This document shows, piece after piece, positions 5,017 through 33,044 of a stretch of 42,663 nucleotides of DNA. Numbering within the stretch: the first letter of the stretch is position 1; the number at the start of each line of letters is the position of its first letter. The notes beneath the pieces were generated by a model, which ran no database searches, had not been told where the DNA came from, and saw only the letters and a list, made by a program, of their open reading frames with translations. This stretch comes from Gammaproteobacteria bacterium (lineage in GTDB: Bacteria; Pseudomonadota; Gammaproteobacteria; Steroidobacterales; Foliamicaceae), in contig JAPOTY010000020.1 in NCBI GenBank assembly GCA_026708965.1, forward strand, positions 68,017 to 110,679, given 5' to 3'. The translations under genes and the position numbers were made by a program.

Positions 5017-5058
5017 GCCCGCGCTCGATCAACTTTTCGTTTCCGGAGGATTCTTACT

Positions 5059-5358: not shown

Positions 5359-5400
5359 TCCGCAGCATCCGTTGCCATTCTTGCATCACGGTCAATAGTG

Positions 5401-5417: not shown

Positions 5418-5469
5418 TTATTTTTAAATCCCGCCGCGCCTATTGGTTGGCGCAATGCTGGAGGAGCGC

Positions 5470-5751: not shown

Positions 5752-5827
5752 TGGTGGAGCCGCACCGCCGGGAAGCGGTGTTCGACCCCACCTCATCCCG
5801 TCATGCTCGACGGCCTCCAGAAAATTT
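5751..5827 (+). pseudogene. probable remnant of a YoeB-type toxin gene
   Basis: From the ATG that overlaps the antitoxin stop, the frame reads MVEPHRREAVFDPT. This resembles the start of many YoeB/Txe mRNA interferases (charged residues, then REAVF-P-F and a REDLRYW helix). After residue 14 the similarity stops and the frame runs antisense into the 3' end of the restriction nuclease gene, closing at 6056. The expected toxin body (DPFxGIGKPEPL, WSRR, RYHY) appears neither here nor at the far edge of the island. I infer that the toxin was cut off when the restriction-modification genes arrived. The match is short, so the assignment rests mostly on position and overlap. Confidence 0.5.
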
Positions 5828-6535
5828 CTACTTGGCCATGCGGCTTTCGCAACGCTTGAGCACTTTCTCCAGCTCATTCACGGCGGAACGCAAAGAATCC
5901 AGCGTTAAGTCCTTGAAATATTTTTCTCGGTGTATCGGCTTTTTCACCCGTCGCTCGCCCCTCAATAGCGTGAGTATTGTTAAATCAACAGCGAAATGCG
6001 ACATAACCGTGTGCGCGCTGGGGCTGCCCTTGGGAGGATACTTCGCGTCCTTGTAGTCACCCCCTAACTGGCTCTCAAGCTGCAAGAGAACGCATTCGAT
6101 CCCCGGATACTTTTTCGACAATAGCGTGGCATCGATCAGCACCCGCTTCAGCATGGCCACTTCAGCGTATGCCTTGCATTCCACGGCGAGCGCGAAGGTG
6201 CCACGCAAGTAGCATTGGACATCACAGCCGAGCTTGTAAACGTACTGTGCCCTGTCCTCCCTGATCGAATTCAGCAGATCGGCTGGAGAAATACGATCCA
6301 AGTATTCCTTGTTGAGCGGGATGTCGTGCTTGCCTTTTCTGAACTCAAGTTCACGATTTGGACGACCAAGATTCTCCCAAGCCGCTCGGACCAGCTTCTT
6401 TGCCATGTTCTCAACAAGCTTCCCCTTTCTTGAGCGCAGGGCTCCTCCCTCAGTGATGCACCACATGGCGCGCATTTCGTCGAGATAGTGCTGCCTGATG
6501 TCCCTGAGGCGTTCCGTCAGAGCGTTTTCATTCAT
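5828..6535 (-). CDS. putative type II restriction endonuclease (PD-(D/E)XK)
   Basis: A 235-residue protein that I cannot place in a named restriction-enzyme family. Its position, 19 bases downstream of a DNA methyltransferase on the same strand, and a PD-(D/E)XK-like core support a restriction role: Asp105 in GCDVQ, then after a strand FALAVECKAY with Glu119 and Lys121. The N-terminal third is charged and helical (residues 1-60) and the C-terminus ends in a Lys/Arg/Glu-rich helix. The local sequence has more A+T than its flanks, suggesting acquisition by transfer. It could instead be another nuclease or a defence protein. The cleavage site is unknown. Confidence 0.65.
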   Translation of the reverse strand: MNENALTERLRDIRQHYLDEMRAMWCITEGGALRSRKGKLVENMAKKLVRAAWENLGRPNRELEFRKGKHDIPLNKEYLDRISPADLLNSIREDRAQYVYKLGCDVQCYLRGTFALAVECKAYAEVAMLKRVLIDATLLSKKYPGIECVLLQLESQLGGDYKDAKYPPKGSPSAHTVMSHFAVDLTILTLLRGERRVKKPIHREKYFKDLTLDSLRSAVNELEKVLKRCESRMAK

Positions 6536-6554
6536 GGTGCTACAGGCATAGAAG

Positions 6555-7712
6555 TTACAGCAAGGTTTCCGCCAGACGCTTCTTGGCTGTCTCGCAATAT
6601 TCGGAGGAAATATCTATGTTGAGATAGCGCCTGCCGCTGTTCTTCGCGGCAACCGCGGTCGTCCCGACCCCAGCAAAGGGATCAAGCACTAAAGCGCCAC
6701 GGAAACTGAACAGCTTTAGAACCCGCGTCGCCAACTCAACCGGAAACATGGCCGGATGCTTGTGCTCGCGCATATTCCGCTCGGGCGCGATGCTCCAGCG
6801 CGCATTGACCCACTGCTTGAACTCGTCGGCGGTAATGTCTGCCGCCGTGGAATCACCTGCCGCCTTCAGATTCCCCTTGCAAAACACTTCAACAAATTCC
6901 CACGTGTACTTCAGATACGGGCTGCTTGGGCTCTTCCAGCTGCCCCACGCGGTGTATTTGCAGTTGTAATTGTTCTTCTCCCACATAATCTCGCCTTTCC
7001 AGATTAGCTTGCGGCGCATGAGGAAGCTGCTGATGACGTGGTGGCTGGGGATGTAGTCGGAGAATAGAGGCTGGACGTTAACAGCGATTCGCCCGCCAAA
7101 CTTGAGGACCCGGATGCATTCATCAAGAACATTGAACAGCTTGTCGTAGTACTTTTCCCACTGGTAATCGTCCGGGCTTTGGCCATATTCAAGACCGAAG
7201 TTGTAGGGCGGCGAAGTGAAAACCAGGTCCACGCAGTTGTCTGGGAGATGCGTCAGCACTTCGGCGCTATCGCCGCACACGATGCGATTCACATATTCGC
7301 CCGGAGCCTCGTTTGCATGCCGGGAGAATGCGTGGTCATTAGCGTAGTAGTGCTGTCCGCGCCGCTTTTCCTTGTCGTGGCGGTGTCGGACCTTGCGCTC
7401 CCTGTTGTAGCCCACGAACAGTCGCTTGCGTCCGCGCAGGCCATAGCTTCGGATCGATTCCACAGCTTGCAGGGTCTCGCGCAAAACCGACTTGGCGGCT
7501 TTTGTATCGTGGGCCTCAATGAGTTCGCCGACCGTCGCCCGCAATTCATGCATGTCAACCTCCCGGACGTTTATATGGCAGGCGTCGGGGGACAGGTCGA
7601 GAAAAATATCTTCGCGCTTGAAGCCCTGGTTAAACCGCCTTTGTATCGCCGGAAGGTCAACCGGCGCCTTATCCGGCACCCGAACCGGCACGGACTTGTA
7701 CTGCTCCATCAT
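6555..7712 (-). CDS. DNA methyltransferase, beta class (N4-cytosine or N6-adenine)
   Basis: Modification partner of the nuclease above, 385 residues. The motif order is that of beta-class enzymes: the catalytic TSPPYNFGL motif (residues 166-174) comes first, and the AdoMet-binding DPFAGVGTT motif starts at residue 344 near the C-terminus. In between is a region of target-recognition type with ENNYNCKYTAWGSWKS. The HPAMFPVELA segment before motif I is typical. About 145 residues precede the catalytic domain and match nothing I recognise. An AAAGGAG site lies seven bases before ATG 7712; the next codon is also ATG. TSPPY is compatible with either base, so the methylated base is undetermined. 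Confidence 0.88.
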   Translation of the reverse strand: MMEQYKSVPVRVPDKAPVDLPAIQRRFNQGFKREDIFLDLSPDACHINVREVDMHELRATVGELIEAHDTKAAKSVLRETLQAVESIRSYGLRGRKRLFVGYNRERKVRHRHDKEKRRGQHYYANDHAFSRHANEAPGEYVNRIVCGDSAEVLTHLPDNCVDLVFTSPPYNFGLEYGQSPDDYQWEKYYDKLFNVLDECIRVLKFGGRIAVNVQPLFSDYIPSHHVISSFLMRRKLIWKGEIMWEKNNYNCKYTAWGSWKSPSSPYLKYTWEFVEVFCKGNLKAAGDSTAADITADEFKQWVNARWSIAPERNMREHKHPAMFPVELATRVLKLFSFRGALVLDPFAGVGTTAVAAKNSGRRYLNIDISSEYCETAKKRLAETLL

Positions 7713-7830
7713 CGCAGAACTCCTTTCTCGCAGACAGCTGCTATGCCCCGCAAGGCTTTCCCGGACGATTTTACGCCCAAGGCCCGGGCGAACGCCACGC
7801 TTGACGACTGCCTGCCGGACATCTGATTCG

Positions 7831-7860
7831 CGCTGGGCGAAGCGAACTGTTTGCCCAGCG
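7831..7860. terminator. hairpin between the island and the thioesterase gene
   Basis: CGCTGGGC (7831-7838) is exactly complementary to GCCCAGCG (7853-7860); one G-U and one A-U pair extend the stem to ten pairs around a ten-base loop. It lies downstream of the leftward thioesterase gene (stop at 7930) and upstream of the methyltransferase. It could end the thioesterase transcript, although no U-tract follows on that strand. The surrounding 217 bases hold no convincing gene. Confidence 0.4.
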
Positions 7861-7929
7861 CTAGGACTCCGCCGGCCTATTCAGAAATCTCAACAGCGTT
7901 GGCGGCAAACGTGATTTTTGGGGACTCTG

Positions 7930-8376
7930 TTATATCCGGCCAGGCCCGTCGGGCTGGGCTTCCATGAAGCGCGCGGAGGCGGTGGCGGCCAAGGCGCTGT
8001 TATCGGCGCGGAAGGCCTTGCCTTCCATTTCCAGCATGCGTCCCCGGCGGCGCAGGAGGCGGCCTTCGAGCCTCAGGCTCGCGCCCATCGGCACCGCATC
8101 TCGGTAGCGAATCTCGCAGCGGGCCGTATGGATTCGCAGGCCTTGCAGGAAACCCCAGTTGGCCATCACGTCGTCGAGCAGGCAGTAGAGGATTCCGCCG
8201 TGCAGCATGTCGCTATAGCCCACATGCGTGGGTCCGGGCGTGAATTCCGCCCGGCAGATGAGTTCGCCGCCGCTATCCTCCAGGCGGAACCGCACCCGCA
8301 AGCCCCCCGGATTGGACGGGCCGCACACGAAGCAGTGATTGGCGGGGTCCCAAAGTTCGCTGATATTCTTTTCCAT
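7930..8376 (-). CDS. hotdog-fold thioesterase family protein
   Basis: A 148-residue PaaI/4HBT-like hotdog protein. The N-terminus has the CFVCGPSNPGGLRVRF motif (about residues 15-30) found in a subgroup of thioesterases with a conserved Cys-x2-Cys before the fold. The catalytic helix contains YSDMLHGGILYCLLDDVM (about 54-71), where HGG and the Asp pair are the expected active-site region. It is probably an acyl-CoA thioesterase with unknown substrate. It is transcribed leftward, divergent from the HIT gene, with a 76-base gap, and is not obviously related to the restriction genes downstream. Confidence 0.82.
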   Translation of the reverse strand: MEKNISELWDPANHCFVCGPSNPGGLRVRFRLEDSGGELICRAEFTPGPTHVGYSDMLHGGILYCLLDDVMANWGFLQGLRIHTARCEIRYRDAVPMGASLRLEGRLLRRRGRMLEMEGKAFRADNSALAATASARFMEAQPDGPGRI

Positions 8377-8452
8377 GGCTTTCAGGTTGTGTTTGCCGCA
8401 GCATGTTCAGGCATGATAGGAACGGCTGGGAAATGATACGCGGGCTTGAGGC

Positions 8453-8887
8453 ATGACTTACGATCCGGGCAATATTTTTGCGCGCATTCTCGCCGGCGAG
8501 GCCAAGTGCCACAGCGTTTACGAGGATGCGCACGTTTTGGCGATCATGGACGTGATGCCGCAGGCCGACGGCCATGCTTTGGTGCTGCCGAAAACGCCGG
8601 CGGCGGATTTTCTGGCGTTGCCGGAGGAAGCGGTGCCGGGCGTGTTTGCGGCCGCCCAGCGGGTGGCCAAGGCTGCGAGAGAAGCGTTTGCGGCTGACGG
8701 CGTTCTGGTCAAGGCGCACAATGGTTCCGCTGCGGGCCAAGTCATATTTCATATGCATGTTCACGTGATTCCCTGTCATCAGGGCCGGCAAATGAGGCCG
8801 CCGGGACATGCGCTGGCGGCTGATCGAGTGCTCGCGGAGCATGCCCGGCTTATTCGTCAGGCACTGGCGCGGCAAACGCCGCAGTAG
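8453..8887 (+). CDS. HIT-family nucleotide hydrolase
   Basis: A 144-residue histidine-triad protein. The catalytic triad HMHVHVIP is at about residues 100-107, preceded by [12 protein letters not shown]. The N-terminal part, [19 protein letters not shown], is the standard HIT opening. Family members hydrolyse AMP-linked phosphoramidates or adenylates. An upstream zinc ligand is possible at Cys19, but the usual Cys-x2-Cys pair is not complete. The stop is 11 bases before the acyl-CoA dehydrogenase ATG, so the two are probably co-transcribed, although no functional link is evident. Confidence 0.92.
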
Positions 8888-8898
8888 CAGCGCGGAGC

Positions 8899-10083
8899 AT
8901 GCCGGGCAGCCATCTCCATTGGCCGTTTTTCGAGGCGCGGCATCGCGCCCGGGAGCAGGCGCTCGACCAATGGTGCGCCGCGCAATCCTGGGAGCATGGG
9001 CAATCCGGCGCCGCTCTCGATGCCTCGTGCAAGGCATTCGCCTTGCGCCTAGGCGAGGCCGGCTTCCTGAAAATCGCGGTTCCCGAACCCTATGGCGAGG
9101 ACGCGGGCTTGGATGCCCGCAGCCTGTGCCTGATGCGGGAAACTCTGGCGCGCCACGAGCCGCTGGCGGATTTTGTGTACGCGATGCAGGTGCTCGGCAG
9201 CGCTCCGATCAGCCTTTTCGGCACGCCGGCGCAAAAAGAAGCGCTGCTCGGCGGCGTTGCCCGGGGTCGAAAGCTTGCCGCCTTTGCGCTGTCGGAAAAG
9301 GAAGCAGGCTCGGATGTCGCCGCCATGGCCATGCGCGCCGAGCCGGATGGCGACAGCTACGTGCTCAATGGCGCCAAGGCTTGGATATCCAACGCGGGGG
9401 TGGCGGATTTCTACGTGGTGTTCGCCCGCACCGGCGAGGGCAAGCGAGGCGTAAGCGCCTTTATCGTTGCTGCTGAAACGCCCGGCTTCGAGGTGAGCGA
9501 GCGCACGCCGGTGATTGCGGCGCATCCGCTGGGCAGCCTCAGGTTCCGGGATTGCCGGGTGCCGCCGGATGCCATGCTGGGCGAGCCGGGGGACGGGCTC
9601 AAGATTGCGCTGGGCACGCTCGACCTGTGCCGCTCGACCGTGGGCGCGGCGGCTCTGGGCATGGCGAGCCGCGCCTATGCGGAAACCTTGAAGCGGGCGC
9701 GCAACAGGCAATTATTCGGCGGCGTTTTGGGCGATTTGCAACTGACCCAGGCCGCCGTGGCGGATATGGCCACCGCCGTGGACGCTTCGGCGCTTCTGGT
9801 TTACCGGGCAGCTTGGCTGCGGGATTCGGGCCAGGAGCGCGTGACCCGCGAGGCCTCGATGGCCAAGCTGTTCGCCACCGAGCAAGCGCAGAAGGTTATT
9901 GACCGCGCCGTGCAATTATTCGGCGGCGAGGGGGTGCGCGCCGGCTCGGTCGTGGAGCGCCTGTACCGCGAAATCCGCGCGCTGCGGATTTACGAAGGCG
10001 CCAGCGAAATCCAGCAACTGCTGATCGCCCGCCACGACTTGCGGAGGGAGGGGGCGGAGAAAGGCGGGGCTAAAGCGCCTTAA
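8899..10083 (+). CDS. acyl-CoA dehydrogenase
   Basis: FAD enzyme of fatty-acid or other acyl-CoA oxidation, 394 residues, the normal length. The middle domain has the FAD/substrate signature [12 protein letters not shown] and the strand [16 protein letters not shown]. The C-terminal helical domain has [17 protein letters not shown] and ends with [22 protein letters not shown] and [10 protein letters not shown], where Glu366 is the expected catalytic base. The N-terminus is slightly atypical ([20 protein letters not shown]). The tail after RHDL is a short charged extension. Substrate chain type cannot be deduced. Confidence 0.93.
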
Positions 10084-10095
10084 GGAAGCTGGCGG

Positions 10096-10980
10096 CTATC
10101 CAGCGTCTGCGGCGCAGCGGAATCCCAAGTTGTTGAGGCCGGAGTCGGGCGGCGTCATCATCCGCGCCGCCAGCCGGTAGCCGCGGCAGTAATTCTCGCT
10201 GCACAGCCAACTGCCGCCGCGGTGGACTTTCTGCGTTCCGGTTTCCGGCCCTCGTGGGTTGCTTGCCGGCGACCGGGCGTAGTAATCGGCCCCGTACCAA
10301 TCCGCAACCCATTCCCACACATTGCCGGTCATGTCATAAAGGCCGAAGCCATTGGGCGCGAACTGCTTCACCGGGGCGAGCCCCGCATAGCCGTCGAGCG
10401 CCCGATCATCCACGGGAAACTCGCCCTGCCACAGGTTGGCCTGGTGCGCGCCCCGGGGAGTTAGCGCATTTCCCCAGGCATAGCGGGCGTTCTTCCGCCC
10501 TCCGCGCGCGGCGTATTCGAACTCGGCCTCGGTGGGGAGCCGCCCGCCCTGCCAGGCGCAGTAGGCAACGGCATCGTTCCAGGAAACATGCACCGCAGGA
10601 AAATCCGGCATGTTCTCGTGCGAGGACTGCGGCCCGTTCGGATGCCGCCAGTCGGCTCCGTCGCTCTTCATCCATCGGCCGGGCCGGGGGTCGAACACGC
10701 CGGACCATCCCAGCTTCTCGGATTCGGTGACATGGCCGGTTGCGTCGGCAAAGCGGGCGAACTGGGCATTGGTGACCTCGTGCGCGTCGATATGGAAGGA
10801 GTCCACGGCAACGCGATGCGCCGGACCCTCGAATGGCAGGCCATCGTCCGTGCCCATCATGAATTCCCCGCTCGTTATCAGCAGCATTCCTTGCGCGGCC
10901 GTCTTCTCATCGCCGGCCAGCGCGCTGCCGAAAAGAATCGGCAGTACCATTACGGCGGTTGCGCGGCGCATGCGGGCCAT
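10096..10980 (-). CDS. secreted formylglycine-generating-enzyme-like (SUMF1) protein
   Basis: A 294-residue SUMF1/FGE-domain protein with a cleavable signal peptide (MARMRRATAVMVLPILFGSA, then LAG). True FGEs convert a sulfatase active-site Cys to formylglycine using a copper-binding Cys pair. That pair is present: GGSWLCSENYCRGYR, with Cys260 and Cys265, followed by TPPDSGLNNLGFRC, closely matching the human FGE C-terminus. Earlier domain hallmarks are GEFMMGTD, EVTNAQFARF, RLPTEAEFEYAARGG and GNVWEWVADW. The start at 10980 is preferred because an upstream extension to 11121 would overlap the divergent receptor gene and hide the signal. No sulfatase gene is in the window, so the client is unknown. 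Confidence 0.85.
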   Translation of the reverse strand: MARMRRATAVMVLPILFGSALAGDEKTAAQGMLLITSGEFMMGTDDGLPFEGPAHRVAVDSFHIDAHEVTNAQFARFADATGHVTESEKLGWSGVFDPRPGRWMKSDGADWRHPNGPQSSHENMPDFPAVHVSWNDAVAYCAWQGGRLPTEAEFEYAARGGRKNARYAWGNALTPRGAHQANLWQGEFPVDDRALDGYAGLAPVKQFAPNGFGLYDMTGNVWEWVADWYGADYYARSPASNPRGPETGTQKVHRGGSWLCSENYCRGYRLAARMMTPPDSGLNNLGFRCAADAG

Positions 10981-11102
10981 TATAGGAAGCGGGCGCTTGC
11001 CCGTGTCCCGGCCGGCGTTTCCGGCGCCGGGAAAACCTCGGCTGCGTTGTCTGCATGGCGTACGAAACCGCTTCAAGGCGAGGATGCGCCCGGTATTCGA
11101 GA

Positions 11103-13202
11103 ATGCAAGGAACGAAAACAACTCTCACCTGGGCATTTCTGCTGCTGTCCGGCTTGCTGATCCAAGCATGGCCGGCTACCGGTTTTGCTGTCGGCCCGGA
11201 GCCTTCCCGCGCTGCCGCCGAGCCGCTTGAGGAAGTGGTCGTAACGGTTAGGCGCCGGGCAACCGATGCCGGCGCCGTGGCTCGCAGCCTCACCGCGCTT
11301 GGGCCGGAAGATACAGGCTGGGCGCTGGGCCAGACGCACGCGCAGGAGGTCCTGGCGCGGGCGCCGGGCGTGAATCTGCAAAGAGGCAGCGGCCAGGAGT
11401 ACCTGCCTGCATTGCGTTCGCCGGTGCTCACAGGCCCGGGCGCCTGCGGCGCCCTCCTTACGGCGGAGGACGGCATCCCGATCACCTCGCCCGGATTCTG
11501 CAATATCAACGAACTGTTCTTCGCTCACCATGAAGCGGCCTCGCGGATCGAAGTTTTGCGAGGCCCCGGCGCCGCGGTTCATGGCGGCAATGCCCTGCAT
11601 GGCGTGGTGAATGTCATCACGGCGCAAGCGGCGGCTTCGCCCGAGGCGGGGTTGGAACTCGGCTCGCATGGATTTTCGCGGTTGCGGCTGAATATCCCGA
11701 GCGAATCTGATTTCGGCCTCAGGTTCACGGGAACCCGCAACGGCGGCTTTCGTGATGACTCCGGCTATCGCCAGATCAAGCTCAACGGCTTCAAGGAAGG
11801 AGGGAGCGGCCGCTGGAGCCGGACCACCGGCTTGGCTTTGAGCGGGCTGGATCAGGACACGGCCGGTTACGTGATCGGACCCGGCAGCTACCGGGACCGG
11901 GAAACGGCCCGATCCAACCCGGATCCGGAGGCCTTCCGCAGAGCCATCAATGTTCGCTTCTACTCGCGCTTTAAGCACAGCCGCGGAGAAGCGCTCACGC
12001 TGGTCGTGACACCGTATGCGCGCTATTCGCGCATGCGCTTTCGAATGCATTTTCTGCCGGGCGATCCGTACGAAAGCAATCATCATCGCGGCGTAGGCGT
12101 GCAATCGGCCGCCTATATTGAGACTTCCGCCGGGCCATTCGCGGCTGGCCTGGATATGGAATACACGAGAGGCGGCCTGCGGCAATGGCAGGAAGGCGAG
12201 ACGGCGGGCAGCGCGTTTGCGCGCGAGGTGTTTCCGTCGGGCGAGCACTACAACTATCGGGCAGATGCGCTTTGGATGGCGCCCTTCGCCCAGTTCGATC
12301 TGCGCCTGAGCGGGCGGTGGACCGTGAGCGCGGGCGCCCGCTATGAGCGGGCCCGCTACGACTATCGAACCAAGCTTCCGGCTGGCCGGAGCCGCGATGA
12401 CCGCACCGCCTGCGGGTTTGGAGGTTGCCGCTATAGCCGTCCTGCGGACCGCTCCGATGCCTTTGCGGCGTTTTCGCCCAAGTTGAGTCTGATGTGGCAG
12501 CCAGCGCCTGGACGGCGCGCCTGGCTGAGCTTCGCGCACGGCTTTCGCATGCCGCAGGCCACCGAGCTGTACCGTTTGCAGGGGGCGCAAACCATAGCCG
12601 AGCTAAGGCCCGAGAACGTTCGGGCCGCGGAGATGGGTTTCGCTCTGCGCTCCAGCGCCGTTGCCGCGCAACTGGTCGTGTATCACATGCGCAAGAGGGA
12701 CGTGCTGTTCCGCGACGCGGAACTGTTCAATCGCACCGGCGGCGGCACCCGCCACGAAGGCCTGGAGGCGGATATCGGCTGGCCGCTGAACGGCGCGCTA
12801 GCGCTCGATCTAACCGCCAGCTTCGCGCGCCATCGTTACGATCGAGATTTCCTGCTGGCCGGCGGCAACCTCAGGGGGCTGGACGTGGATACGGCGCCGC
12901 GGCGCTTCGGCGGGATTCGCCTGCGCTGGCAGGATGGCGATGAACGGACTGTCGAGCTGGAGTGCCTATGGACAGGAGGCTACTTTCTGGAGCCGCGGAA
13001 CCGGCACCGATATCCGGGGCACGAACTGTTCAATCTGCGCGCCCGTATGGCCTTGGGGAGCCGGCTGACGGCCCATGCGAGACTGTTGAATCTCACCGGG
13101 CGCGCCTACGCCGGACGCGCCGACTACACGGTATTCAGCGGCCAGCGCTATTTCCCCGGCGCGCCGCGCTCGCTTTACCTCGGGCTTCAGTGGCGCTGGT
13201 GA
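11103..13202 (+). CDS. TonB-dependent outer-membrane receptor
   Basis: A 699-residue receptor with signal peptide (residues 1 to about 28, MQGTKTTLTWAFLLLSGLLI). Next come a TonB-box-like EEVVVTVRR (about residues 43-51), a plug domain with VLARAPGVNLQRG and IEVLRGPGAAVHGGNALHGVVNVIT, and a beta-barrel ending in aromatic LQWRW, as outer-membrane proteins do. Plug and barrel are complete. I chose ATG 11103 because 11055 would add 16 non-signal residues. The start is 122 bases from the divergent FGE-like gene, so they may share regulation. The ligand is unknown; this clade includes siderophore, cobalamin and other organic-ligand receptors. Confidence 0.92.
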   Translation: MQGTKTTLTWAFLLLSGLLIQAWPATGFAVGPEPSRAAAEPLEEVVVTVRRRATDAGAVARSLTALGPEDTGWALGQTHAQEVLARAPGVNLQRGSGQEYLPALRSPVLTGPGACGALLTAEDGIPITSPGFCNINELFFAHHEAASRIEVLRGPGAAVHGGNALHGVVNVITAQAAASPEAGLELGSHGFSRLRLNIPSESDFGLRFTGTRNGGFRDDSGYRQIKLNGFKEGGSGRWSRTTGLALSGLDQDTAGYVIGPGSYRDRETARSNPDPEAFRRAINVRFYSRFKHSRGEALTLVVTPYARYSRMRFRMHFLPGDPYESNHHRGVGVQSAAYIETSAGPFAAGLDMEYTRGGLRQWQEGETAGSAFAREVFPSGEHYNYRADALWMAPFAQFDLRLSGRWTVSAGARYERARYDYRTKLPAGRSRDDRTACGFGGCRYSRPADRSDAFAAFSPKLSLMWQPAPGRRAWLSFAHGFRMPQATELYRLQGAQTIAELRPENVRAAEMGFALRSSAVAAQLVVYHMRKRDVLFRDAELFNRTGGGTRHEGLEADIGWPLNGALALDLTASFARHRYDRDFLLAGGNLRGLDVDTAPRRFGGIRLRWQDGDERTVELECLWTGGYFLEPRNRHRYPGHELFNLRARMALGSRLTAHARLLNLTGRAYAGRADYTVFSGQRYFPGAPRSLYLGLQWRW

Positions 13203-26693: not shown

Positions 26694-27767
26694 TCAACGC
26701 GGGTCCGATCCGCGCGGGTTTGATTTATTGCCTTGAACGGCGTCCAACAGGCGGCGGATCGGCGCAGGCATGCCCAACGGCTGCGCTCCATCGTGCCACC
26801 GCCATGCTTCGGTTTCGCGAATCTCATTGACGGCGCTAGCCAGCTCTATTTGAATGGGGCGGATTTCCAGTTCAAAGTGGGTGAAGCCGTGCCGTATCGG
26901 CGGCAGTTCCCCCAGCAGGGTTGCGGAGCCATTGAGCACTTTCGCGCACCAGGCTTGCGCGTCCTCGCCTTCGTTCAAGGTGGGCAGGCACCATAGTCCC
27001 GCCCATATGCCGTAGGATGGCCGCCGCTCAAGCAGCACTGCGCCGTCGGGATGTCGAACCAGCGCCATTGAGCAATGCCGAAGGGCGCGGCGGCGGACTG
27101 GACGCGAGCTTGGTATGTCGGCGGTCCTTCCCTGAATGCGCGCTTGGCAATCGGATTCCAGCGGGCACGATCCGCAGCGCGGTTTGCGCGGCACGCAAAC
27201 GGTGGCGCCGAGGTCCATGATGGCCTGGGTGTAATCCCGCACTCTTTCCGCGGGCGTATGGGCCTCGGCCAGATTCCAGAGTCTTTTTGCGACTGCCGAC
27301 TTGCCGGGCCAGCCTTCCACGGCATGCAAGCGGGCCAGAACGCGCCGGACGTTTCCATCCAGGATGGCGTGCCGCTTTCCATGCGCTTGGGCCAGGATCG
27401 CGGCGGCGGTGGAGCGTCCAATGCCCGGTAGTGCCACCAGTTCGTCGTATTCCTTCGGAAGTTTGCCGCCGTGCCGTTCAACGGCTATCCTGGCGGCCTT
27501 CATCAGATTATGGGCGCGCGAGTAATAGCCTAATCCGGCCCAGACGGCCAGCACCGCGTCTTCGTTGGCTTCGGCCAACGCCCGGATATTCGGGAAGTCA
27601 TCAACGAATCGCTGGTAATACCGCTTGACGGTTGCGACCTGCGTTTGCTGGAGCATGATCTCGGCCACCCACACGCGGTAGGGGCTGCGCTGCCGCTGCC
27701 AAGGAAGGTTCTTGCGTCCGTGCTTATCCCACCAGGCGAGGAGTTGGGGGGCGATCATGCGCCGCAT
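26694..27767 (-). CDS. mutY: adenine DNA glycosylase MutY
   Basis: Removes adenine mispaired with 8-oxoguanine. From ATG 27767 the protein has 357 residues. It contains the catalytic Glu36 in [10 protein letters not shown], the helix-hairpin-helix [12 protein letters not shown] with Asp137 in ILDGNVRR, the [4Fe-4S] cluster ligands Cys191, Cys198, Cys201 and Cys207 (C-x6-C-x2-C-x5-C), and a C-terminal NUDIX-like domain with [11 protein letters not shown] and the [11 protein letters not shown] strand. The frame is open to 27914, but that part is out-of-frame exporter sequence. ATG 27758 is an alternative start. The start overlaps the end of the exporter gene by 44 bases, implying read-through transcription from the microcin cluster. 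Confidence 0.95.
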
Positions 27768-29874
27768 TGTAGGCGGCGCCCCCGGCATTCTTCGCTGAGA
27801 AATCCAGAACCTGATCGGCGTGGCGCAGGATGGCCGGACGGTGGGCGGCGCAAACCACAGTGATATCAAGATTCTTGAGCATCTGCACGACCCGTTCCTC
27901 GGTAGCGGGATCAAGGTGGCTGGTTGCTTCGTCCAGGATCATCGCGCACGGGCGCCGGTAAAGGGCCCGCGCCAGCAGGATGCGCTGCGCCTGTCCGCCG
28001 GACAAATTGGAACCCATGTCGCCAATCTGGCTGGCCATGCCCATCGGAAACTGTCGAATCTCCGCGTCCACGGCCGCCAGATGCGCGACTTTCTCGATCA
28101 GTTCCGGATCCGGCGCCGGATCGAAGAAGCTGATATTTTCCGCGATGCTGCCGCGGAACAGCACGTCGCCTTGCAGCACAAGGCCTAGGCGCCGGCGATA
28201 GTCGCGGCGCTGAAGTCGGCCCACCTCCTTTCCGTCTGCCAGAAGCCGCCCTTCGGTAGGTGTTTCGAGACCCGCCAGCAGTTTGAGGAACGTGCTCTTG
28301 CCGCTGCCGGATGGGCCCGTGAGCACCACCAGCTGGCCCGGCTCAATACGGCAGGAAAACCCGCGCAGAACAAACCCCTCGTTGCTGCCATACGCGAATC
28401 CCAGCCGCTGGGCCTCGAACGAGCCTTCGAGCCGTCCCACCGGCAGGCCGCTCTCCGGTTCGGCCTCGTGTTCAACGATGTCTCCCAGCCGCTCCGCATG
28501 CAGCCGCAGCATGTAGGCCTGCTGGAACAGCGCGATCAGCGCTGCCAGCGCGGCGCTGAAACGGCCTCGCAGCGTTATGAAGGCAAACAGCGCGCCCAGT
28601 GTGATCTGGCCGCTGAACAGCGCCAGCACCCCTGCGCCCAGAAACGCGATTTGCTCCGCTTCCCCGAGCACGCTCAGTCCGGCCCCGGAATACATGCCTA
28701 GGCGCGCGCTGCGCACATCCAGATTCAGCTTGTCGGCCAGGTGTGTTTGCCAAACGGCCAGGCGCTCGCTCTCGCCGGCCAGCGCCTTCATCGTTTCGCT
28801 CCCGCGAAGCGATTCCAGAATCGCCGAGCTTTGCTTGGCGCCGGCCACCAGCCCGTCCCGCGCCAGCCGCCGCTGCATGGGAAGCACACTCCAAACGATA
28901 CCGGTGCGAAGCGCCAGTCCGGCCAGGCTGATCAGCATCAGAACGGGGCTGTAGATCAGCATCGCCACACCGGTGACGCTAACCTTGAGCAAATTGACAA
29001 TGCCCGTAACCACTGAGCCCGTGGCGAACTGGATGATGGGCGATAGCGATTGCATCCGTGACACCACATCGCCCACATGCCGCTCGCGGAAGAAACGCAC
29101 CGGCAGGCTGAACAGTCTTCGCGTGAGATTGCGCGAGGTTTGCAGAGAGATCGAGGTCGATAGCCAAATCCCGATCCAGCCCTGAAGCAGTTGCAGCGGT
29201 ATCGCTATTGCCGCCAGCAGCCCCATGGCGATCAGCATGGAGCGCAGCAGCTCGGAGTCCTGGGACGTGGTGACCTCGTCGATCAGGATTTGCGAAAGGA
29301 TCGGCGGCGCCAGACTGAGCACCTGCATCGCCAGAGCGATGATGGTGAGACCGGCCAGCGTGCGCGCAAGCCGGTCGAATGAACGGGCTATGGACTTGAG
29401 CGGAAGCACGCCGCGCAGGTCCGCCGAGCGGAAATCCACACGCGGGGCGAGTTCCAGCGCCACCCCCGTGAAATGGGCGTCGAGTTGCTCAATTCGCCAC
29501 CAGCGGCGTTCTTCTGCCGGATCCAGGATCAGGGCGCGTTGCTTGCGCACCTTCTCCAGCACCACGTAGTGATCCAGGTTCCAGTGGAGGATGCAAGGGG
29601 TCTTGAGCTGAGGAAGCTCTTCGATCTCCAGCTTGAGCGGGCGGCCGCTAAGGCTCAGCTTCTCCGCCGCGTCCATCAGGGCTTGCAGCGTATGGCCGCG
29701 GCCGACACCCCCGATGGCGGCGCGAGTCGCGGTCAAATCCATCCGCAGTCCGTGGAAGTCGGCAATCATCGCCAGACAGGCCAGACCGCACTCCGACTGC
29801 TGGTGCTGGGGAATATGCCGCAGCCGCCGGGGACGGCCGATGGCGCTATCAAATGCCTGCCTGAACGGGTGCAA
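27724..29874 (-). CDS. peptidase-C39 ABC exporter, CvaB/RaxB type
   Basis: Bacteriocin-type exporter that cuts double-glycine leaders and pumps the peptide across the inner membrane. Starting at TTG 29874 (GAGGAG seven bases before it), it has 716 residues. An N-terminal C39 peptidase contains HQQSECGLACLAMIADFHG with catalytic Cys29, LHWNLDHYVVLE with His102, and an Asp at about 118. A six-helix membrane domain spans about 168-455. The ATPase has Walker A GPSGSGKST (520-528), signature LSGGQ (624-628) and Walker B ILDEATS (646-652). The ATG at 30039 would extend it through the fusion-protein gene and is rejected. It overlaps the HlyD gene stop by 26 bases. Its clients are presumably the two leader peptides upstream. 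Confidence 0.93.
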   Translation of the reverse strand: MHPFRQAFDSAIGRPRRLRHIPQHQQSECGLACLAMIADFHGLRMDLTATRAAIGGVGRGHTLQALMDAAEKLSLSGRPLKLEIEELPQLKTPCILHWNLDHYVVLEKVRKQRALILDPAEERRWWRIEQLDAHFTGVALELAPRVDFRSADLRGVLPLKSIARSFDRLARTLAGLTIIALAMQVLSLAPPILSQILIDEVTTSQDSELLRSMLIAMGLLAAIAIPLQLLQGWIGIWLSTSISLQTSRNLTRRLFSLPVRFFRERHVGDVVSRMQSLSPIIQFATGSVVTGIVNLLKVSVTGVAMLIYSPVLMLISLAGLALRTGIVWSVLPMQRRLARDGLVAGAKQSSAILESLRGSETMKALAGESERLAVWQTHLADKLNLDVRSARLGMYSGAGLSVLGEAEQIAFLGAGVLALFSGQITLGALFAFITLRGRFSAALAALIALFQQAYMLRLHAERLGDIVEHEAEPESGLPVGRLEGSFEAQRLGFAYGSNEGFVLRGFSCRIEPGQLVVLTGPSGSGKSTFLKLLAGLETPTEGRLLADGKEVGRLQRRDYRRRLGLVLQGDVLFRGSIAENISFFDPAPDPELIEKVAHLAAVDAEIRQFPMGMASQIGDMGSNLSGGQAQRILLARALYRRPCAMILDEATSHLDPATEERVVQMLKNLDITVVCAAHRPAILRHADQVLDFSAKNAGGAAYNAAHDRPPTPRLVG

Positions 29875-31231
29875 GCGCGGGCTCCTCAAATGGTGTCGAG
29901 ACGTTGCCGGCGCCGCGAATAAGCGGATCCATGAGCCAGCGGATGAGTGTGCGCCGCGTTTCGATGATGGTGGCGTCCACTCCCAGCCCGGGGCGCAGCG
30001 GCCAGCGGCGGTTGTTGGCCTGCATGTGCTGTTGCTCAAGCCTCACGCGCGCTTCGTAGGCAGGAGCAAGAAGATTGGGGACCAGCCGAATGGCGCGCGC
30101 TTCGAGCGGGCTGGAGGTCATTTCCATTACGGTGCCCCGCAATACGCCGAACTGCCGCGAAGGAAAGGCTGTAAGTTTTAGCACTGCCTCCTGGCCGGTC
30201 TCGGCCCGCCCAGCCGCCGCCGAGGAGAGGTAGAGCCGAGCCTCCATTTCCGCGCCGGGCGGATGCATAGTGGCCAGCGCATCGCCGGCGCTGACAGGCT
30301 TGCCCGCGCTGACCAGCACGTCGGCCAGTTGACCCCGCATGGGCGCGATGATCGCCCGCCGGGACATGCTTTCGAGCTCCACGGCGCGCTGCGCCAACTG
30401 CTCCGATTCAATCTCGAGGTTTAAGTCCAAGGCCTGGAATAACTGGCGTTCAGCAACTATTTCCTGGGCGATTCGCCCGGCAGCGGCCTCGGTCTCGATC
30501 CGCTGGGAACGGAGCTGGTCCAGCAGGGCCATGGCCTGAAGCTGGCGCAGCTCGGCGGGTTCCGCATCGCGCTTTGCGGCATGCCCCTGAGCGGCCAGCG
30601 CCTTGAGCCGGCGATAGTCGGCAACCGCCAGTTCGACCTGGCGGGAGGCATTCAAGATCCGCGTCTTGAGCAGAGCCAGCGCGGATATGAGCGCGTTCCG
30701 CTCAAGGCGCATGGAGCGCATTCTTGCCTCGAACGCGCTTCGTTCCCTGTCACGCCGCCGCGCCAGCAGGTCTCCTTGCTGCGCGGCGGACAGAGATCGG
30801 GTCTCGTAGCTCCCGATGCCGTCCGCAAGCGCTCGATCGACAACCAGCGTCATCAGCGTGCTGCCGGCCTCCGCCGTGTCGCCCGGCTGCACCCGCACTT
30901 CCTCAATCACGCCGCTTTGTCCGGCGGGTATCGTGGTGAGGCCGCCCACGGGCAGAAGCACGCCGGGCGCATGCAACCGGCTCGGCACCTGTATAAGGAA
31001 AGCTAGCGCGATCAGCGCCGCCAGACAAGCGCAGGCAATCAGGACCGCAAAGGGTGTGGAGGCCGGCCCGGCCAGAAGCACTTTTCCGAGGAATCGGTGC
31101 CGCCGGTTTGCCAGAGCATTCTCCCGAAACAGCCCTGATTGGCTCGGGGAACGCCTTGCAGGATGGTTGCCCACCGGGCCGGCCTCTACAGTTGCTGCCT
31201 GCCGCGCGTCAGAATATTTCCGGCCATTCAT
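29849..31231 (-). CDS. HlyD/CvaA-type membrane fusion protein
   Basis: Periplasmic adaptor that links the ABC exporter to an outer-membrane TolC channel. The 460-residue protein has a cytoplasmic N-tail, one membrane anchor at about residues 58-81 (PASTPFAVLIACACLAALIA), a first lipoyl half (LPVGGLTTIPAGQSGVIEEV), a long Ala/Arg/Glu/Leu-rich coiled-coil hairpin (about 150-300), then the second lipoyl half (RRAIIAPMRGQLADVLVSAGKPV) and beta-barrel. The RPGLGVDATI segment near the end is typical. Its start overlaps the preceding small gene by 23 bases, so the cluster is tightly coupled. No tolC gene lies nearby, and a housekeeping TolC would be needed. Confidence 0.92.
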   Translation of the reverse strand: MNGRKYSDARQAATVEAGPVGNHPARRSPSQSGLFRENALANRRHRFLGKVLLAGPASTPFAVLIACACLAALIALAFLIQVPSRLHAPGVLLPVGGLTTIPAGQSGVIEEVRVQPGDTAEAGSTLMTLVVDRALADGIGSYETRSLSAAQQGDLLARRRDRERSAFEARMRSMRLERNALISALALLKTRILNASRQVELAVADYRRLKALAAQGHAAKRDAEPAELRQLQAMALLDQLRSQRIETEAAAGRIAQEIVAERQLFQALDLNLEIESEQLAQRAVELESMSRRAIIAPMRGQLADVLVSAGKPVSAGDALATMHPPGAEMEARLYLSSAAAGRAETGQEAVLKLTAFPSRQFGVLRGTVMEMTSSPLEARAIRLVPNLLAPAYEARVRLEQQHMQANNRRWPLRPGLGVDATIIETRRTLIRWLMDPLIRGAGNVSTPFEEPALAPVQAGI

Positions 31232-31427
31232 CGCTGGGCGGCAGCCAGTGCAGCGGAACCGGATCGCCCGAGCATCCGGGCCCTGCGGCTGGCGGATTCT
31301 CCGCCATCAGGGCCCAGTGAACGGGTGGTTCCTCCCAGCGTGGAATATCGTGTCTTACAACGGTGCGGAATTCCTGGTAGGCTCCGCCCGCCGGCAGACG
31401 AGCTTCCCGTAGCGTCAACTTCCTCAT
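31209..31427 (-). CDS. small protein with double-glycine leader, putative second microcin precursor
   Basis: I do not recognise a family for the body. The 72-residue product begins MRKLTLREARLPAGG. This shares Met1, Arg2, Leu4, Glu8, Ala13, Gly14 and Gly15 with the leader of the gene just upstream, and resembles the microcin V leader as I recall it (MRTLTLNELDSVSGG). Cleavage after Gly15 would leave 57 residues, rich in Pro and Trp (four Trp: in PRWEEP, VHWALM, LHWLPP and DEWPEI) with a single Cys and no membrane helix. A GGAGG site lies five bases before the ATG. The missing Val at -4 is atypical. It could instead be a maturation or chaperone protein; the lack of a membrane helix argues against a microcin V-type immunity protein. 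Confidence 0.7.
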   Translation of the reverse strand: MRKLTLREARLPAGGAYQEFRTVVRHDIPRWEEPPVHWALMAENPPAAGPGCSGDPVPLHWLPPSDEWPEIF

Positions 31428-31465
31428 CTCAACCTCCGTGTGCTGAGTGCAAGCGGCGACTCGCC

Positions 31466-31487
31466 CGCCGCGCTCGCAGGCGCGGCG
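31466..31487. terminator. GC hairpin between the two precursor genes
   Basis: CGCCGCGC (31466-31473) and GCGCGGCG (31480-31487) form a perfect eight-pair GC stem around a six-base loop. It lies between the first precursor stop (31501) and the second start (31427). There is no U-tract. In many bacteriocin operons a hairpin after the structural gene partly ends transcription or shields the mRNA end; that role here is inference. Confidence 0.45.
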
Positions 31488-31500
31488 CGGTCAGGCCCCG

Positions 31501-31884
31501 TCAGTAGCTCCAAGTGTCAACGACGTACTGAAGGGGTGCGCCGTAATCCCGAACGACATTGCCGCCCGGCCCGACGTTCGAGCCGGGGTTCGGTCTGAAC
31601 GGATTGCCGCGGCCACCCTCCTCTGAGTCCGACTCGTCATCGCTGTCGCTGCTGTCATCGCCAAACCAGCTGCACACGGTCGGGCCTACGAGATCGCCGA
31701 CGAGCGCGCCCACGCCTGCGCCGGAAAGCGCGCCCGCCCCGGCACCGACGCCGCCTGCCATGCTGCCGGCCGCAGCGCCGATGACTCCTCCGGTCACTGC
31801 GCCCGTTACCGTTACGCATCGCTCACATTCGGATTGATCTCCGCCGGCAACGGCGGCGCATTCCTGATTGATTAATACTCGCAT
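31501..31884 (-). CDS. putative class II microcin (microcin V-like) precursor
   Basis: A 127-residue precursor. The leader MRVLINQECAAVAGG ends in the double glycine recognised by C39 exporters, with the usual Glu at -8, Val at -4 and Gly-Gly at -2/-1. The predicted mature part (residues 16-127) opens with a Cys-x2-Cys (20, 23). It continues with a Gly/Ala zipper from about 24 to 70, containing GVIGAAAGSMAGGVGAGAG, which resembles the hydrophobic core of microcin V. Then come Cys71, an acidic Asp/Ser/Glu stretch (76-89), a Gly/Pro/Asn linker and an aromatic end (TWSY). A perfect AAGGAGGT site lies five bases before ATG 31884. The role is inferred from leader, composition and the linked exporter; antimicrobial activity is not shown. 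Confidence 0.8.
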   Translation of the reverse strand: MRVLINQECAAVAGGDQSECERCVTVTGAVTGGVIGAAAGSMAGGVGAGAGALSGAGVGALVGDLVGPTVCSWFGDDSSDSDDESDSEEGGRGNPFRPNPGSNVGPGGNVVRDYGAPLQYVVDTWSY

Positions 31885-31913
31885 GATTTACCTCCTTGTA
31901 TGGATTGAAATGC

Positions 31914-31934
31914 GCGGTGCAACCCTTGCACCGC
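31914..31934. promoter_or_regulatory. perfect inverted repeat upstream of the microcin precursor
   Basis: GCGGTGCAA (31914-31922) and TTGCACCGC (31926-31934) are exact reverse complements separated by three bases. The element lies 30 bases before the precursor ATG on the transcribed side, just upstream of the ribosome binding site. It could be an operator for a dimeric repressor or, as RNA, a nine-pair hairpin with a three-base loop. No regulator gene is in the cluster, and I could not find a convincing promoter in the bases up to tRNA-Gly. Confidence 0.6.
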
Positions 31935-32047
31935 TACGGTAGCGAGAATGCGCTGCTCCTGAACGCGGGAAAAGCTCGAAAAGGGCTGCATACCGCGAGT
32001 TTTAGGTTGCAGGCGCTATTGTGGCCCAACGCCTCCAATTAAGGAGG

Positions 32048-32080
32048 ACCGCAGGCGCGCATATTCAATGCGTCTGCGGT
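32048..32080. terminator. hairpin after tRNA-Gly
   Basis: ACCGCAG (32048-32054) pairs with CTGCGGT (32074-32080), and an inner CGCAT/ATGCG stem extends it. It begins three bases beyond the CCA end of tRNA-Gly on the minus strand, so it probably ends or helps process that transcript. A TTTT run on the opposite side means it could also act as a plus-strand terminator. Confidence 0.5.
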
Positions 32081-32082
32081 TT

Positions 32083-32156
32083 TGGAGCGGACGATGGGAA
32101 TCGAACCCACATCATCAGCTTGGGAAGCTGAGGTTCTGCCTTTGAACTACGCCCGC
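32083..32156 (-). tRNA. tRNA-Gly (anticodon CCC)
   Basis: A 74-base cloverleaf on the minus strand. Acceptor GCGGGCG pairs with CGTCCGC (one G-U), the D-arm is GTTCAAAGGCAGAAC, the anticodon stem TCAGC/GCTGA encloses loop TTCCCAA (anticodon CCC), the T-loop is GTTCGATTC, the discriminator is T, and CCA is encoded. It reads codon GGG. The microcin cluster begins about 200 bases downstream of its 3' end, a common site for acquired DNA. Confidence 0.95.
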
Positions 32157-32366
32157 TTCGCGGCTTGGTCTATGCTGGCACGATGGAGCGCCCATCTTAT
32201 CGCATCGAAGTGTGCGGTGTATGCCCGAGGTCGATGCTGCCATACGGGTTCGCTGCGCCCGCCGTGCATCGCGGACGAGCCGGTAGCGCCGTGTGCCCGC
32301 ATCCGGCATTCAGTTTCGAGAGCCGTCAAGAGCTGTCCGAGACGTATCGCAGTGGGTGGAACCGCC

Positions 32367-33044
32367 GTGAACTCCGGAATTGATAAGCGGGCCGCGCCGC
32401 GCAGTTTCGTTCGCAGGTCGGGACGGATCACGGTGGCGCAGAAGCGTGCGCTGAAGGCGTTGTGGCCCAAGTACGGCGTGGAGGGGGCGAGCCTTCCCTT
32501 GTCTTTGAGCGATATCTTCGGAAGGGAGGCGTCCACGGTGCTGGAGATCGGCTTCGGCAGCGGAGAAACGCTGGTGCGCGCCGCGGCGGAATCCCCGAAC
32601 CTCAATTTTCTGGGTGTAGAGGTGCATCTTCCGGGCTTGGGCCGCTGCTTGCTTGGGGCCGAGCGCGCCGGCATTTCCAACCTGCGCCTGATTCAGGCCG
32701 ATGCCATGGACGTGTTGCAGGCGCAATTGCCACCGGCTGCCGTGGCGATGGCGTGCCTGTATTTCCCCGATCCCTGGCCGCGCAAGCGGCACCATAAGCG
32801 GCGTCTGGTGCAGCCGGGTTTCGTGACGCTGCTTGCCCGGGCGCTGGAGCCGGGCGGCGTCTTCCATGTGGCTACGGACTGGGCACCGTACGCCGAGCAT
32901 ATTGAAGGGGTCATGGATGCCGTGGCGGCATTCGAGCGGCTTGGCCAGCCGCCTGCGCGCCATGCCACGCGGTTCGAATCGCGCGGCAGCGCGCTGGGCC
33001 ACGAAATCTGGGAGGCCGCCTACCGGCTGCGACCGCCCCGCTGA
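32367..33044 (+). CDS. trmB: tRNA (guanine-N7-)-methyltransferase TrmB
   Basis: Makes m7G46 in tRNA using AdoMet. From GTG 32367 the protein has 225 residues: RSFVRRSGRIT, the AdoMet motif VLEIGFGSGETLVRAA, FLGVEVHLPGLGRCL, the catalytic and tRNA-binding YFPDPWPRKRHHKRRLVQP, and HVATDWAPYAEHIEGVM, all close to E. coli TrmB. The frame is open back to 32082, but that part is antisense to tRNA-Gly and unlike the family. GGTGGA lies six bases before the GTG. It converges on the AmpG-like gene with a 25-base overlap of the 3' ends. The 210 bases between tRNA-Gly and this start hold nothing I recognise. Confidence 0.94.
   Translation: MNSGIDKRAAPRSFVRRSGRITVAQKRALKALWPKYGVEGASLPLSLSDIFGREASTVLEIGFGSGETLVRAAAESPNLNFLGVEVHLPGLGRCLLGAERAGISNLRLIQADAMDVLQAQLPPAAVAMACLYFPDPWPRKRHHKRRLVQPGFVTLLARALEPGGVFHVATDWAPYAEHIEGVMDAVAAFERLGQPPARHATRFESRGSALGHEIWEAAYRLRPPR

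Follow-up and report, generated by a model that had tools for sequence, protein, structure and literature searches.

A microcin- and Cdz-like peptide export cassette with a predicted diversifying effector at a tRNA-Gly/mutY slot of a gammaproteobacterial genus

Introduction

The microcin V genes are CvaC, CvaA and CvaB. Class II microcins have five components, among them a cognate immunity protein (PMC9746304), and microcin V chooses its receptor Cir through its last 32 residues, according to the excerpted text of PMC12511343. The Caulobacter Cdz system has relatives that are described, in the excerpt of PMC5380434, as widespread, particularly in gamma-proteobacteria, and as patchy in their spread.

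Here, a four-gene cassette encoding two small proteins (P1 and P2), a HlyD-type adaptor and a C39-peptidase ABC exporter was analyzed in a 42,663-base stretch of gammaproteobacterial DNA (the window). An earlier note on this stretch had proposed a class II microcin-like system and knew of no described example in the lineage. The cassette itself was not found described in the open-access literature, as judged by titles and abstract openings, but the claim is narrowed in that such peptides are not confined to Enterobacteriaceae and Cdz-like systems are widespread. The comparison set comprised nine genomes of the genus, at least six of them metagenome-assembled (MAGs). Judging by isolate names, the MAGs of the genus presumably derive from marine sponges.

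Results

Layout of the locus

On the minus strand, the tRNA-Gly is followed by P1, P2, the adaptor, the exporter and mutY (Table 1). The leftward run of four overlapping or closely spaced genes reported earlier was recovered in full, with a gap of 73 bp between P1 and P2 and, by coordinates, overlaps of 23 bp (P2/HlyD), about 26 bp (HlyD/ABC) and about 35 bp (ABC/mutY). The order P1-P2-HlyD-ABC was identical in all nine genomes examined, and mutY adjoined the exporter in all nine loci. The tRNA-Gly forms the 5' boundary of the exchanged cassette.

Table 1. Features of the cassette and its borders, in window positions
Feature	Position	Strand	Remarks
tRNA-Gly (ccc)	32083..32156	-	ARAGORN in the window; identical sequence aligned in 8 relatives
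9-bp inverted repeat GCGGTGCAA-GGG-TTGCACCGC	31914..31934	-	upstream of P1
Shine-Dalgarno-like AAGGAGG of P1	31891..31897	-	invariant in 9/9 genomes
P1, GG-leader precursor	31501..31884	-	127 aa: 15-aa leader and 112-aa mature peptide
P2, Pro-rich small protein	31209..31427	-	72 aa; GG-type leader with Pro at -4
HlyD-type periplasmic adaptor	29849..31231	-	profile matches
C39-peptidase ABC exporter	27724..29874	-	start probably TTG at about 29874
mutY	26694..27758	-	3' boundary gene, outside the system; taken to be mutY from its sequence

The inverted repeat, a candidate leader hairpin or operator, occupied the same place in all nine genomes. It departed from the searched pattern by 0-1 mismatch in seven genomes, by two in the window and by three in G007; matches with 0-1 mismatch occurred only upstream of P1, those with three also elsewhere. 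Its cells were paired in 100% of cases with one compensatory change, yet covariation was no better than in shuffles (69/500), and a conserved RNA was rejected. At 27000-32300 no sigma-70-like promoter was found, and terminator-like sites amounted to one, inside HlyD, versus 4.1 expected.

The P1 precursor

The leader of P1 (MRVLINQECAAVAGG in the window) was near-invariant, with a Gly-Gly end, Val at -4, Cys at -7 and Leu at -12 in 9/9 genomes, and follows the class II leader rule (15-18 aa, GG/GA end, hydrophobic -4/-7/-12) when Cys is counted as hydrophobic. Searched with a strict GG-leader regular expression, the window yielded a single ORF, P1, and its reversal gave no match. The same expression matched in 43 of 73 loci that surround distant exporters and total 1.17 Mb, and in 3 of 73 when these were reversed, so the leader stands beyond chance. 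Homologues without a leader or away from an exporter had been named as evidence against the microcin-like proposal; all nine P1 copies of the genus keep the leader and adjoin the exporter. A family search for the NHLP leader domain gave no match in P1 or P2. This domain occurs at a separate locus of the genome.

In the mature part, Cys20 and Cys71 enclose two Gly zippers, and residues 72-127 form a variable tail. Both cysteines and the zipper glycines, G32xxxG36 and G51xxxG55xxxG59, were invariant in the nine genomes, bearing out the proposed likeness to the microcin V zipper. GxxxG motifs exceeded shuffles at p<0.05 in eight of nine P1, two of which (G001 and G002) are identical, and did not do so in G006 (p 0.15). 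Precursors measured 115-133 aa and mature peptides 100-118 residues. Mature glycine content was 12.4-21.4% in eight genomes and 11.5% in G005, which we rate as conforming to the class II range of 12-26%. The mature mass of 9.82-11.86 kDa lay below the class II limit of 10 kDa in only one of nine.

The tail is the most variable part of P1 and was sorted by us into four types; in the window it is polar and 56 residues long. The acidic stretch and aromatic end pointed out earlier thus represent one of several tails and not a general feature, the last residue being Tyr or Phe in 6/9. Values of pN/pS, which are crude and near saturation, were 0.30, 0.66 and 0.75 for leader, zipper and tail, and 0.20, 0.36, 0.60 and 0.71 for ABC, HlyD, P2 and P1, respectively.

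The match of P1 to Pfam MccV was weak (E 0.02, below cutoff) and counts against a microcin reading. DUF6861 matched the zipper barely above cutoff (28.5 versus 28), and the best PDB match was a probable tape-measure protein (E 1.2e-5). Structure prediction, proposed earlier as a check, yielded poor models. The AlphaFold model of P1 had a mean pLDDT of 46, which also counts against the best reading, and that of P2 had a pLDDT of 59 with no confident fold, so neither was usable for fold comparison.

Outside the genus, 387 genomes of the order were searched with up to 11 candidates scored in each, and at least 21 of them gave partial matches to P1 (E 3e-6 or weaker); those listed lay in frames of 180-720 residues, none starting at leader position 1. 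A separate search matched one of 49 non-genus genomes (G041, E 1e-5, P1 residues 24-87). All these matches were read as generic zippers and rejected as homologues. Within the genus, a search for further P1 copies gave no more than sub-significant zipper matches (best E 0.018) and thus revealed no silent store of tails.

The companion protein P2

Two double-glycine peptides had been proposed, of which P1 was confirmed by the strict expression. P2, with the leader MRKLTLREARLPAGG in the window, fails it. Permitting Pro at -4 and -7 gave a looser expression, composed after P2 had been seen, whose sole matches in the window were P1 and P2. What supports P2 is its retention in 9/9 genomes. Pro stands at -4 of its leader in 6/9, in which the class II leader rule does not hold, and its mature part is Pro-rich and, with only 0-5% Gly, without a zipper.

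Divergence of P1 tracked no other cassette gene (Mantel: P1-P2 0.09, p 0.29; P1-HlyD 0.08; P1-ABC -0.06), whereas that of P2 tracked the adaptor (0.88, p 0.0012) and the exporter (0.84, p 0.0028). These values were 0.73 (p 0.009) and 0.66 (p 0.04) without the divergent pair G004 and G007, and 0.65 (p 0.06) for P2-ABC when G001 was also left out. Between G002 and G006, P2 is 94% and P1 33% identical; between G001 and G002, P1 is identical and P2 90% identical. Since P2 co-varies with the exporter and not with P1, it is probably, on these comparisons, a companion of the exporter and neither a second microcin nor a P1-matched immunity protein.

With up to 14 first-pass candidates scored in each of the 387 genomes of the order outside the genus, matches to P2 at E<=0.01 occurred in at least 9, with none convincing among the matches listed; the best of these (E 6.8e-5) contained an internal stop. 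A Pro-rich GG peptide of a Lysobacterales MAG was rejected as a relative, as it aligns over the leader only (hhalign probability 7). Likewise rejected was a C-terminal motif common to P1 and P2, seen by eye (xAPLxYV... versus PVPLHWL...), with same-genome p<0.05 in one of nine genomes (G008, p 0.002).

Exporter, adaptor and immunity gene

The exporter exceeded the cutoffs of Pfam Peptidase_C39 (113 bits), ABC_membrane and ABC_tran, and its triad Cys29/His102/Asp118, numbered from TTG, is intact. The Cys-His-Asp triad was present in 9/9 exporters (eight by regular expression, the ninth by eye), and a C39-peptidase ABC transporter adjoins the precursor in 9/9, as in class II microcins. Their membrane fusion protein has its counterpart in the HlyD-type P0003, which scored 52.5 bits with Pfam HlyD_3, over cutoff, and 112 bits with TIGR01843, below its cutoff of 208.65. 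A TolC-type OEP family exceeded cutoff in 9/9 genomes, with no cassette protein among the matches listed. PADLOC gave 12 matches for the exporter, which we read as general ATPase matches, and none for P1, P2 or HlyD.

Window positions 27701-32400 contain 75 ORFs of 22 aa or longer, of which only exporter and HlyD ORFs exceeded a mean hydropathy of 1.6 over 19 residues. The scan covered the window's cassette, one of nine loci, and the usual immunity gene, including a CdzI-type small transmembrane protein, is therefore absent there. The class II microcin-like proposal thus stands for the C39 exporter and adaptor beside a Gly-zipper GG peptide of microcin V plan, and lacks a defining component, the membrane-type immunity ORF. 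The missing linked immunity gene counts against a toxin reading.

Exchange of the cassette and of P1

In G007, the cassette groups with G004 and mutY with G002. The HlyD+ABC block tree joined G007 and G004 at 100/100 and rejected G007+G002 (p-AU 9e-55), and the mutY block tree joined G007 and G002 at 98/99.8 and rejected G007+G004 (p-AU 2e-6); the upstream block also rejected G007+G004 (p-AU 0.011). The groups for these AU tests were named after the trees had been seen. From +200 to +3800, each of the 18 bins of 200 bp placed G007 closer to G004 than G002, and the exact run of G007 with G002 stops just past the tRNA-Gly, at -193 from P1. Two observations count against the best reading: the trmB tree places G007 within the main group and not beside G002, and upstream of -1200 the two share 68-82% with no special closeness.

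P1 also varied by itself. An exact run of 920 bp spans P1 in G001 and G002. G001 and G006 are 71% and 46% identical over P1, against 91% upstream of it and 88-96% across P2 and the greater part of HlyD. Taking recombination as the cause of this discordance, we infer that the whole cassette was exchanged between relatives and P1 also alone; assembly chimeras among MAGs could mimic part of the exchange.

Discussion

Proposed function and alternatives

The sequence comparisons are best read as a microcin- or Cdz-like system with a predicted diversifying peptide, P1, fixed in the genus. We give even chances to the fuller proposal that P1 is an exported, membrane-inserting effector against close relatives, targeted by its tail, with P2 as a constant part of the export unit. 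The C39 domain would cut P1 after Gly15, and the mature peptide would leave via the HlyD adaptor and a TolC-type channel encoded elsewhere. Most likely it would fold into two Gly-zipper helices, closed into a hairpin by a disulfide, and insert into a membrane, with the C-terminal tail choosing the target by analogy with microcin V. If P1 acts against close relatives, as seems most likely, the effector and sometimes the whole cassette would be replaced at the fixed tRNA-Gly/mutY slot. Presence in every genus genome counts against this reading, as Cdz-like systems are patchy in the excerpt of PMC5380434. The same presence, and a window cassette without any further membrane-type ORF, would suit a surface or matrix peptide of a non-lethal kind (adhesin, self-recognition, biofilm) that needs no immunity and whose tails follow partner, host or phage recognition. 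A biofilm role for GG-secreted small proteins and the ability of Gly zippers to drive aggregation appear in the excerpts of PMC4997328 and PMC5380434, respectively. However, a zipper region with a variable tail behind it parallels microcin V and the Cdz toxins, and repeated replacement of P1 alone would be expected of antagonistic loci; we hold the surface peptide possible but somewhat doubtful. A RaxX-like host-signalling peptide leaving via a RaxA/RaxB-type pair appears extremely improbable: the exporter is of the same type and the slot between housekeeping genes is exchanged by recombination, as proposed for raxX-raxSTAB in the excerpt of PMC6637879, but the suggested RaxX-type comparison found no sulfotransferase family match in the four cassette proteins, and mature P1 is a Gly-zipper protein well above the size of the 60-residue RaxX precursor.

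For P2, a constant part of the export unit, either leader-bearing companion or exporter regulator, seems most likely. Joint action of P1 and P2 as a two-peptide bacteriocin, comparable to CdzC/CdzD or class IIb pairs, would fit their adjacency in 9/9 genomes and their 15-residue GG-type leaders, but the low glycine content, the missing zipper, the Pro at -4, the lack of a confident fold and a divergence unrelated to that of P1 make it quite improbable, and the second microcin of the earlier note is probably to be given up. That P2 is the immunity protein of P1 seems very improbable: it is the sole other small gene found in the cassette, but the ORFs with a membrane-type segment do not include it, it bears an export-type leader, and the G002/G006 and G001/G002 identities separate it from P1. 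A bolder possibility, which we consider unlikely, is that P2 is a new exporter component with a GG-type leader that docks on the C39 domain and gates or escorts the changeable P1. P2 would not be cargo, given Pro at -4 in most copies and its evolution alongside the exporter, and the cassette would act as a discrimination system, fixed in the chromosome and without immunity, with exchangeable zippers and tails of P1 setting strains apart.

If the best reading is right, microcin-like antagonism would be fixed throughout a genus in an uncultured lineage of Gammaproteobacteria, and the natural exchange of effectors and tails would show which parts match each other. The absent linked immunity gene raises the question of how a producer survives a changing effector, or whether the effector is a toxin at all. 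With a conserved companion that bears a leader, the C39 exporter, a well-studied export machine, would gain a new element.

Comparison with known systems

With microcin V and class II microcins the cassette shares a 15-aa GG leader, a C39 exporter with a HlyD-type adaptor and a TolC-type channel elsewhere, and, with microcin V, a Gly-rich part followed by a C-terminal part. It differs from microcin V in the window's lack of a membrane-type immunity ORF, the cysteines bracketing the P1 zipper, a mature P1 above 10 kDa in 8/9, and its fixed chromosomal slot with a constant companion, P2. Relative to Cdz and Cdz-like systems, as presented in the excerpt of PMC5380434, the cassette is alike in size range, in its small cluster with a type I export pair, and in its Gly zippers and GG-type leader, P1 falling within 60-151 residues, a leader end of G[G/A/S] and one or two Gly zippers; it differs in having, in the window, no gene like the 3-TM CdzI of that excerpt, a long, polar tail of several types and a second protein that is not a zipper protein. 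Xanthomonas raxX-raxSTAB likewise combines a GG peptide with a processing exporter in a cluster thought mobile by general recombination between housekeeping genes (PMC6637879, in excerpt); unlike it, the cassette holds no sulfotransferase and a peptide of another kind, and, as the cluster is in every genus genome examined, alleles would be exchanged here instead of presence and absence. By description alone, as given in the excerpt of PMC4997328, P1 also resembles the small biofilm proteins that Synechococcus elongatus secretes with a GG secretion motif.

Cassette composition and conservation

The four-gene cassette, which encodes the double-glycine (GG) peptides P1 and P2, an HlyD-type adaptor (HlyD) and a C39 ABC exporter (ABC), lies in a genome (G000) of 2.47 Mb in 47 contigs. 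Homologues of all four genes were grouped together in nine of nine genus genomes examined (G000 and its relatives G001-G008), while no full-length P1 or P2 was found among a capped number of candidates scored per genome in 387 other genomes sampled from the order. The adaptor and C39 exporter read from sequence in the earlier note were borne out by Pfam, with HlyD_3 in the former and Peptidase_C39, ABC_membrane, and ABC_tran in the latter all above cutoff. Among NCBIfam matches, all 25 listed of 198 for the exporter and all 21 for the adaptor fell under the cutoff, and both proteins therefore fit no named subfamily.

Identity to the window proteins was 77-88% for the exporter, 59-82% for HlyD, 35-71% for P2, and 37-56% for P1, the least conserved of the compared genes. 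With mutY at 64-72% and the nearby xth at about 89-91%, the exporter is thus more conserved than the adjoining mutY, yet not more than xth. Values of pN/pS, simple pairwise proportions near saturation that indicate relative constraint only, ascended in the order ABC, HlyD, P2, and P1.

Features of the cassette and of the compared exporter loci
Feature	Locus	Coordinates	Strand	Content
Cassette	window		-	tRNA-Gly, then P1 (127 aa), P2 (72 aa), HlyD-type adaptor (460 aa), C39 ABC exporter, mutY
Inverted repeat	window	31914-31934		perfect 9-bp repeat with GGG centre, upstream of P1; candidate regulator site or leader hairpin
GG peptides	L064 (Lysobacterales MAG)	10088-11576	+	one Pro-rich of 69 aa and one of 107 aa, after a 276-aa ORF
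NHLP-type RiPP locus	L053 (G000:C37:1-14000)	7286-7639 and 1190-7230	+ and -	
Third C39 exporter with HlyD-type adaptor	L052 (G000:C2:140000-151610)	6563-11265	-	adjoins recA and alaS

The two peptides

The P1 leader of 15 residues is nearly invariant, with V at -4, C at -7, and L at -12 in all nine genomes. Invariant Cys20 and Cys71 flank two zippers, G32xxxG36 and G51xxxG55xxxG59, and GxxxG spacing exceeded that of shuffles at p<0.05 in eight of the nine sequences, two of which are identical (exception G006, p 0.15). Profile matches to P1 were weak and of zipper type; DUF6861 alone lay just above its cutoff, and the MccV profile was sub-threshold (E 0.02). AlphaFold placed helices at 17-42 and 47-75 before an unstructured tail, and the mean pLDDT of 46 makes this arrangement a hint only. 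Four tail types were assigned by eye from the alignment of the nine sequences: A (G000, G003, G006), B (G004, G005, G007), C (G001, G002), and D (G008). The inverted repeat occurred at the same place in all nine genomes, with G-U pairs in two relatives.

P2 had no family match in Pfam or NCBIfam profile searches. Its leader is GG-type, with Pro at -4 in six genomes, Ala in two, and Val in one; the remainder is polar and Pro-rich, with FRT, H-x-IPR, and WLP invariant. In Mantel tests over 36 genome pairs, P2 identity tracked HlyD (0.88) and ABC (0.84), while P1 tracked none of P2, HlyD, and ABC (0.09, 0.08, and -0.06). Without G004 and G007 the correlations were 0.73 for P2-HlyD (p 0.009), 0.66 for P2-ABC (p 0.04), and 0.03 for P1-P2; the coupling is therefore not merely the deep split of these two genomes. 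Excluding G001 as well gave 0.57 (p 0.03), 0.65 (p 0.06), and -0.10, respectively. Between G002 and G006, P2 was 94% and P1 33% alike. From these sequence comparisons, P2 looks like a part of the export unit rather than a P1-specific immunity protein.

Probable exchange at the locus

In the mutY tree G007 joined G002 (100/99), while in both the exporter and HlyD trees it joined G004 (100/100). The trmB tree placed G007 within the main group, away from G004, its partner not settled. DNA identity between G007 and G002 was 92-100% from -1000 to the tRNA (offsets relative to P1, positive toward mutY), 47-80% from -200 to +3800, and 90-100% through mutY; farther upstream, at -2400 to -1200, it was just 68-82%. 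Exact G007-G002 runs of at least 60 bases stopped at -193, just past tRNA-Gly, and restarted at +3978. G007 was closer to G004 in all 18 of the 200-bp bins from +200 to +3800, though not in those at -200 and 0. In AU tests, whose groupings were chosen after the trees were seen, the HlyD+ABC block rejected G007+G002 (p 9e-55), and both the mutY block (p 2e-6) and the short upstream block (p 0.011) rejected G007+G004; the upstream block did not settle the partner of G007.

Smaller stretches over P1 also departed from their surroundings. G001 and G002 were identical over 920 bases (-296 to +623), a stretch that takes in P1 and the start of P2; identity in the bins beyond it was 78-99%. The P1 bins of G001/G006 were 71% and 46% identical, against 91% upstream and 88-96% across P2 and most of HlyD; those of G005/G006 were 67% and 39%, against 94% upstream and 75-89% across P2 and HlyD. 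Tail and N-part of P1 also disagree in their relationships, as in G004-G005 (62% identity in the tail vs 48% in the N-part). Since at least six of the nine genomes are MAGs, chimeric contigs are a possible source of single exchange cases.

Other exporter loci

The closest exporter outside the genus among the loci compared was that of L064 (42% identical), where the 276-aa ORF, which we take to be a CaaX-type membrane protein, is placed between exporter and GG peptides. In L053 the precursor carried a TIGR03793 leader (62.4 bits, cutoff 50.9) with only LCCCGV following ISGG, a short core not found by regex search in five related loci (L054-L058). It adjoins two ABC genes taken as a putative NHLM exporter pair, the C39 domain having been tested in one, and an NHLM HlyD-like protein under cutoff (87.2 bits). 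A regex for small GG-leader ORFs found none in the vicinity of L052.

Comparison with known systems

PMC9746304 lists a cognate immunity protein among the five components of class II microcins, and transmembrane helices are a feature of known proteins of this sort (PMC11494933). A scan of the window locus alone, at positions 27701-32400, covered 75 ORFs with a minimum length of 22 aa; a stretch with membrane-type hydropathy above 1.6 occurred only in exporter and HlyD ORFs. The immunity protein, absent from the window's cassette, may be located elsewhere or nonexistent.

The cassette parts work like their counterparts in class II microcin or Cdz-like (PMC5380434) systems. Class membership is withheld because no immunity component was found in the window's cassette and mature P1 exceeds 10 kDa in eight of nine genomes; the class II microcin-like system proposed earlier is supported for leader, zippers, C39 exporter, and adaptor. 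The P1 tail is likened to the 32 C-terminal residues with which microcin V binds Cir, as given in part of PMC12511343, and by this analogy could be a target selector. For the GG-peptide cluster raxX-raxSTAB, exchange by general recombination between housekeeping genes is proposed in a passage of PMC6637879. GG-leader ORFs stood beside distantly related exporters in 43 of the 73 non-genus members of 79 exporter loci compared, vs 3 of 73 in reversed sequence, so that a GG peptide beside a C39 exporter is already well known as a general kind. What is new here is that the slot is fixed and its alleles are exchanged, that P2 is a constant companion, and that a linked immunity gene is missing.
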